A stretch of 32,563 nt of DNA from Bacilli bacterium (lineage in GTDB: Bacteria; Bacillota_I; Bacilli_A; RF39; UBA660). This document shows positions 1-610 of this stretch, one piece after another (within the stretch, counting starts at the first letter, position 1; every line of letters starts with the position of its first letter). A program made the translations under genes and the position numbers. The stretch spans positions 1 to 32,563 of the forward strand of contig JAGHHB010000018.1 of NCBI GenBank assembly GCA_017887885.1. The letters are read 5' to 3'. Below the pieces are notes generated by a model. The model worked only from the letters and a program-made list of their open reading frames with translations, made no database searches and was not told the origin of the DNA.

Positions 1-64
1 CATTAAATAAGTAATATAGTTAGACCCCCCCCCTAGTTAACAAATTGTTAATTATCTTAATCAT
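1..64 (-). other. 5' end of unknown gene interrupted by a G9 tract (runs off window)
   Basis: On the minus strand an ATG at 64-62 follows an SD-like AAAGGAAGTGA with 9 nt spacing and a good sigma-A promoter. The reading frame is M-I-K-I-I-N-N-L-L-T-R-G-G-V and then meets TAA at 22-20, directly after a run of nine G (C at 25-33 on the plus strand). With eight G instead of nine the frame reads on through S-N-Y-I-T-Y-L-M to the window edge. With ten G it also stops. The gene product cannot be identified from so few residues. In Firmicutes the gene after rpoE is often pyrG, but these residues do not resemble the CTP synthase N-terminus. It may be a phase-variable gene, a slippage-regulated gene, a homopolymer sequencing error or a non-coding leader. 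Confidence 0.45.
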
Positions 65-98
65 GTGGGGTCACTTCCTTTACTCTTTTTATATTTTT

Positions 99-127
99 AT
101 TATACTAAATATTAACTTATATTGCAA
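99..127 (-). promoter_or_regulatory. sigma-A promoter for the left-edge gene
   Basis: Minus-strand TTGCAA (127-122), 17-nt spacer, then TATAAT (104-99). It lies between the end of rpoE and the left-edge ATG, with an SD at about 81-71. The match to the consensus is strong, so a transcript starting near position 92 and reading to the left is likely. Confidence 0.7.
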
Positions 128-175: not shown

Positions 176-610
176 CTAATTATCAAGTTCTTCGTCATCG
201 ACAATTGTTAATTCAGAGTAATCATCATCTATAATATCTGCTTCTTGGGCATCATCGTAACTATCATCGTCATAATCATCTTCTTCACTTAAATCTTCAT
301 CATCCAAGTTTTCATCTTCATTCTCTTCAGATTCTTCATAAATATCATCTATATCTATTTTGACAGAATGATTAGCACGCAAATCCCAATTACCATCATT
401 AAGTAAAATGAAATCTTTAGATGTTGTTAAAGATTCAAAGAAGTCTCCAATCTTCTCTTGATATTCTTCATCATTAAGTCCCAATAACTTGCATATTTCC
501 TTAAATAAATCAGCAGTATTCATTGTTGTTTTATTTTCTTTTAAATACATTTCAGCAATTTTAGTATAAGAAAGTAATTCTAAATTTTCTCTACTCATTT
601 CATTAAGCAT
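176..610 (-). CDS. rpoE: RNA polymerase delta subunit
   Basis: Delta is the small accessory subunit of Bacilli RNA polymerase that speeds recycling and lowers non-specific DNA binding. The 144-residue protein has the expected two parts: a globular N-terminal HARE-HTH-type domain (about residues 1-80, with the pattern NTADLFKEICKLLGL) and a highly acidic tail of Asp/Glu runs from about residue 85 to the end. The ATG at 610 follows AGGAGGATAAAAT. It starts 11 nt after the argS stop, so the two are probably co-transcribed. An argS neighbour and the acidic tail make the call secure. Presence of delta argues for Bacilli rather than Clostridia. Confidence 0.93.
   Translation of the reverse strand: MLNEMSRENLELLSYTKIAEMYLKENKTTMNTADLFKEICKLLGLNDEEYQEKIGDFFESLTTSKDFILLNDGNWDLRANHSVKIDIDDIYEESEENEDENLDDEDLSEEDDYDDDSYDDAQEADIIDDDYSELTIVDDEELDN

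Follow-up and report, generated by a model that had tools for sequence, protein, structure and literature searches.

Leader Anatomy and the Contig End

The window, a stretch of 32,563 nucleotides with a GC content of 28%, is the entire contig C48 of a 1.25 Mb genome (G000) assembled in 96 contigs. At its left edge lies a short leader, directly downstream of a gene that we take to be the RNA polymerase delta subunit, named by its acidic tail. The features read from the sequence were:

1-127, minus strand: leader repeat, cut by the contig end and shared with contig C45 as an exact 127-mer
122-127, minus strand: -35 box TTGCAA, kept in most copies of the genus
99-104, minus strand: -10 box TATAAT, separated from the -35 box by a 17-nt spacer
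74-81, minus strand: Shine-Dalgarno sequence (SD) AAAGGAAG, similar to AAGGAAG/AGGAAGG in genomes G002 and G009
67-72, minus strand: GACCCC between SD and ATG, which can pair with GGGGTC at 28-23
20-64, minus strand: leader ORF at G9, peptide MIKIINNLLTRGGV and stop, the early-stop frame (predicted OFF)
36-51, minus strand: TTAACAATTTGTTAAC, an imperfect palindrome TTAAC-N5-GTTAAC adjoining the tract
25-33, minus strand: G9 tract at codons 11-14, the proposed slippage site, 6-12 long among copies
3-5, minus strand: stop (TAA) of the G10 frame; the G8 frame has no stop up to the window edge
128-167, no strand assigned: 40 bp beyond the leader common to contig C76; in C76 they lead on to a fragment of a broken transposase (Y2_Tnp, IS91-type)
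176-610, minus strand: the upstream gene

An earlier note on this DNA had described a sigma-A promoter with 17-nt spacing, an SD, an ATG, and a G9 run at codons 11-14 followed by an immediate stop, and all of these are present on the minus strand. The start codon lies at 64-62 and the TAA at 22-20, giving 14 codons; as the note also stated, the G8 frame stays open to the window edge and the G10 frame stops, at the TAA at 5-3. Its view that such a run is very unlikely by chance in AT-rich DNA was borne out, the tract being the sole 9-base G or C run in the window against 0.01 expected from dinucleotide shuffles. The run is in translated sequence, more than 60 nt past the -10 box, and a comparison with Rfam leader and riboswitch families gave no match to the leader at gathering score. 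GACCCC (72-67) and GGGGTC (28-23), which had been proposed to pair, both occur in the leader; the z-score of the pairing was -0.05 for the window leader and -1.9 and -2.7 for two congeners. In three genera the tract could pair with the C-rich sequence that separates SD and ATG, a pairing that is not significant for the window; a C/U-rich stretch at that position recurs in three genera and is absent in the others.

The TTAAC-N5-GTTAAC element stands at a fixed distance before the G-run in attenuator leaders and occurs in two reading frames (ATT AAC and TTA ACN), although its conservation is in part a product of selection, as the loci were found using this motif. Because it is kept in two different reading frames, its pattern suggests a role as DNA or RNA.

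Positions 1-127 of the window are identical to C45:1-127, a copy near the end of C76 (C76:34117-34284) has 97% identity to the same bases, and a copy near the start of C75 has 98% identity over window bases 1-92. Contig ends that overlap by exactly 127 bases are characteristic of a k=127 assembly graph; contig C48 is therefore broken at a repeat, and the biology goes on leftwards. Leader repeats of this kind explain assembly breaks at surface-protein loci in such genomes. The C76 counterpart of window bases 128-167, with the broken Y2_Tnp fragment, was recorded at L002, 1345-1540.

Paralogues and Intact Copies

Past the break, both the C75 and the C76 copy have some 40 nt of spacer, then a hairpin (CTATAG ... 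CTATAG) and a T-run, and in C76 the terminator is followed by a ribosome binding site (RBS) and the start of an ORF, GTGAATAAAT, at the contig end. The G8 frame runs for about 15 further codons in these paralogues before it meets a TAG inside the 5' arm of the intrinsic terminator, so that the long ORF that the earlier note had expected in this frame is absent. For the window copy itself, a terminator and a following gene are predicted from copies that are 97-100% identical.

Complete leaders were found in related genomes. In a congener (G002; GenBank CALVHX01, 'uncultured Bacilli bacterium' BRZ_PI bin89) there were nine pattern matches to the leader, and the copy on its contig C14 is complete, with promoter, SD, ATG, tract, hairpin (dG -22 to -23), T7, RBS and a surface-protein gene, whose 665-aa product has an N-terminal hydrophobic signal and DUF285/PARCEL repeats (E 3e-134). 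A third species (G009) has four intact leaders, quite different in sequence and identical in plan, before similar proteins, the single one tested being DUF285/PARCEL (E 8e-33), and an intact copy in G231 leads into a BspA-type LRR protein (E 8e-35). Hairpin z-scores were -2.7 (C76), -5.5 (G002), -4.7 (G217) and -4.6 (G009). A GxTYAxFT-like signal is common to the N-termini of many of the downstream proteins, of which the DUF285 and BspA-LRR types could be matched to families and the others are without a clear match. The leader peptides differ among genera while the architecture is kept, and therefore it should be the act of translation, rather than the peptide sequence, that matters.

At one further locus in the congener (L218, G002:C25:10400-11300), an attenuator leader of the same kind and with another hairpin stands before the gene for an FHA-domain protein (PF00498) similar to the N-terminal part of the type VII secretion protein EssC. 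A phase-variable secretion system is possible at this locus.

Reading Frames and the Terminator

The position of the stop codons relative to the hairpin follows one plan. In the C76 leader the three frames stop 5, 22 and 51 nt past the tract, and the hairpin spans 42 to 90. Stops in the G002 leaders fall 7-8, 18-19 and 56-57 nt past the tract, with the stem at 39-91, and in the G009 leaders 5-14, 19 and 120-126 nt past it, with the stem at 34-90; in one of the latter (L185) the long frame reaches as far as the surface gene's start codon and ends on it. The same plan of one frame entering the stem, with other spacers and hairpins, is found in genera g53, g55, g82, g104 and g105. The stops of closed frames precede the stem by 11-46 nt (median 30). 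In C75, C76 and all examined intact copies of the genus, the open frame comprises 29-58 codons and extends to the terminator or as far as the next gene's start, with a separate RBS and ATG behind it.

The frame pattern was assessed across diverged copies by asking whether any frame is open from tract to stem. Of 46 loci that had both a tract and a terminator at or below -8 kcal/mol, 23 leaders with spacers less than 75% alike were kept, representing seven genera of the family. A frame was open into the terminator in 23/23, against 12.6 expected from dinucleotide shuffles (joint P ~2e-7), and exactly one frame was open in 20/23 against 10.3 expected from the same shuffles, statistics in which leaders of one genus are not independent. 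Of 91 natural control stretches (reverse-complement, reversed, upstream and downstream), 61 had an open frame, and against this 67% the chance of 23 open leaders is about 1e-4, which is weaker than the shuffle P.

Tract Length Among Copies

Tract length varies both between paralogues and between species. Nine of the 44 leaders scored had the open frame (predicted ON), and 35 were closed (predicted OFF). Among near-identical leaders of G002, the copies on C27, C37 and C53 are open (G9), and those on C11 (G8), C14 (G6) and C51 (G10) are closed; G287 and G354 each have one open G9 copy and one closed G10 copy, and G009 has one open G8 copy and three closed G9 copies. The earlier note had proposed a slippage switch, and this idea survives in altered form: near-identical paralogous leaders in one genome do differ in G count and hence in frame, which supports a length-dependent switch well, but the gene itself is not read on in the G8 frame, and the switch would instead act through attenuation of a separate downstream gene.

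All four copies in G000 are closed, the C75 copy lacks its ATG, and the C76 tract is interrupted by a T, and for these reasons the leader family may be decaying in this species. All 11 genomes of the genus encode MutS, and slippage is therefore not boosted by the lack of this repair protein; deficient mismatch repair was ruled out as a booster on these grounds.

Proposed Mechanism and Alternatives

The leader looks functional and is most likely a phase-variable attenuator. From its anatomy we infer both switching and attenuation, and consider it quite probable that slipped-strand phase variation of a leader peptide controls transcription attenuation. A sigma-A promoter would drive a leader RNA carrying the small ORF with the G-run, followed after roughly 30-50 nt of spacer by an intrinsic terminator and then by the RBS of a surface-protein gene, and replication slippage in the living population would alter the number of Gs. 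In one frame of three, the ribosome would translate up to or through the hairpin and block it, allowing transcription to continue (ON). In the other two it would stop 11-46 nt before the stem, and the hairpin would form and end transcription (OFF). The G9 tract of the window copy would correspond to an OFF frame, with G8 or G11 as ON. Such leaders could switch surface proteins on and off at random.

The form of switching that the earlier note had envisaged, in which a long surface gene carries the tract in its N-terminal coding part and is in frame at G8, does exist in the same family, where G244 (L092), G243 (L109), G321 and G083 have such tracts with long ORFs in one frame. For the window leader this reading is very unlikely, as in C75, C76 and the examined intact congeneric copies the open frame ends at the terminator or next gene and a separate start site (RBS and ATG) comes after it; the C75 and C76 paralogues themselves contradict a long gene in the G8 frame. 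Runs of G9 are also slippery for polymerases, and transcriptional slippage by RNA polymerase, giving mixed leader frames and a constant partial read-through, would be expected to show an identical anatomy. DNA tract lengths that differ between near-identical paralogues, and the interrupted tract of C76, argue against it, and we regard it as very unlikely.

An ordinary amino-acid attenuator that senses glycine supply through GGG codons would likewise have two or three Gly codons in a short leader ORF and a terminator behind it. However, the run is always pure or nearly pure G, never mixed GGN codons (no copies with the run replaced by synonymous GGN codons were seen), tract lengths are not multiples of three, one frame of three enters the stem, and the genes downstream encode surface proteins, not glycine metabolism, all of which makes this explanation very unlikely. 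The copies are dispersed and homogenised, with 97-100% identity within G000 and about 73% to G002, and a transposase fragment adjoins the C76 copy, as might be seen with a mobile MITE-like repeat in which the G-run has no regulatory role. Against such a repeat stand the orthologous sites in two species (rimM, rseP), the presence after every examined intact copy of a gene with its own RBS, and the frame pattern, which a passive repeat would not give; signs of a mobile element at the leader were limited to the repeat itself and the neighboring transposase fragment. We consider this reading very unlikely.

Comparison with Known Systems

The attenuation logic is known already from the pil1 locus of Streptococcus gallolyticus, where ribosomes get to a premature terminator and open it, or fall short of it, according to the number of repeats in a leader ORF; this was demonstrated with variants, by deleting the terminator and by removing the leader's ATG (Danne et al. 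2014, PMC3894217). The repeats there are GCAGA pentanucleotides, 22 in pil1 and 13 in pil3, the two pilus loci (PMC3894217), and a literature search for phase-variable attenuation found it only for these pentanucleotide-repeat pili. As in pil1 and pil3, the leader described here has a promoter, an SD and the ATG of a short ORF that contains a slippage-prone repeat, in this case G9. Its paralogues, outside the window, have an intrinsic terminator between leader and structural gene as pil1 does, and on the evidence of sequence anatomy the repeat number would set whether the leader stops before, or within or after, a terminator upstream of surface structures. Unlike the streptococcal loci, the repeat is a run of 6-12 Gs rather than GCAGA units, and the leaders form a multicopy family before PARCEL, LRR and other signal-peptide proteins, not sortase pilus genes. 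The leader would thus work like pil1 yet is not a pil1 member, and the G-run and the multicopy family are what is new here. G-run replication slippage is also reported to switch a surface structure in a gut commensal, at a Bifidobacterium breve pilus locus, where the tract is intragenic and the abstract describes no attenuator (Penno et al. 2022, PMC9187656). The window leader differs from the intragenic homopolymer type in that no long ORF is restored in any frame for leaders of its kind.

Distribution and Related G-Runs

In a tract census by pattern searches, 42 of 386 genomes from the family had the tract together with the motif upstream of it, and the reversed pattern gave about a dozen matches in all; 42/386 overstates the attenuator type, as the matches in G090 and G368 read as promoter-spacer tracts (preceded by a GTTGACA-like and followed by a TATAAT-like box) and some of the rest lie in coding sequence or arise by chance. 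Reading of the loci confirmed the attenuator type in 17 genomes of six genera (g1, g53, g55, g82, g104 and g105), and a seventh genus is possible (G328, with two frames open). Plain G-run attenuation, in many copies per genome, would extend to at least six genera of this small-genome, uncultured lineage from the gut and, if true, would be one of the chief ways in which these bacteria diversify their surface.

Leaders of one genome resemble each other much more closely than they do their orthologues, a pattern of concerted evolution, probably by gene conversion. Orthologous leader sites were seen at rimM (L003 on C45 and L050 on G002:C42) and at rseP (L008 on C75 and L043 on G002:C14).

In promoter-spacer phase variation, as at Neisseria porA and opc, the length of a homopolymeric G-run sets expression; in the window leader, by contrast, the tract lies at 33-25 and not between the -35 box and the -10 box (104-99). 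An unbiased search for G9 runs found them in 76/145 genomes, many directly after TTGACA or TTGCAA, in promoter spacers, and promoter-spacer G-runs occur in sister genera. A wider picture can be offered tentatively, as a speculation that we think somewhat less likely to hold than to fail: in uncultured gut Bacilli, G-runs may be genome-wide random switches, placed in leader attenuators, promoter spacers or N-terminal coding sequence, with the attenuator as a portable cassette homogenised between loci that would give each cell its own combination of surface proteins, and with TTAAC-N5-GTTAAC as a nucleic-acid element acting in the switch, for instance by promoting slippage.

In many genomes of the family, G9-G10 runs in the spacer that separates a TTGACA or TTGCAA box from a -10-like box were observed before genes for secreted or membrane proteins, with up to about 40 runs per genome, as candidates for promoter-spacer phase variation; examples are L206, L209, L210, L211 and L221 (in G105, G068, G022, G143 and G099, respectively).
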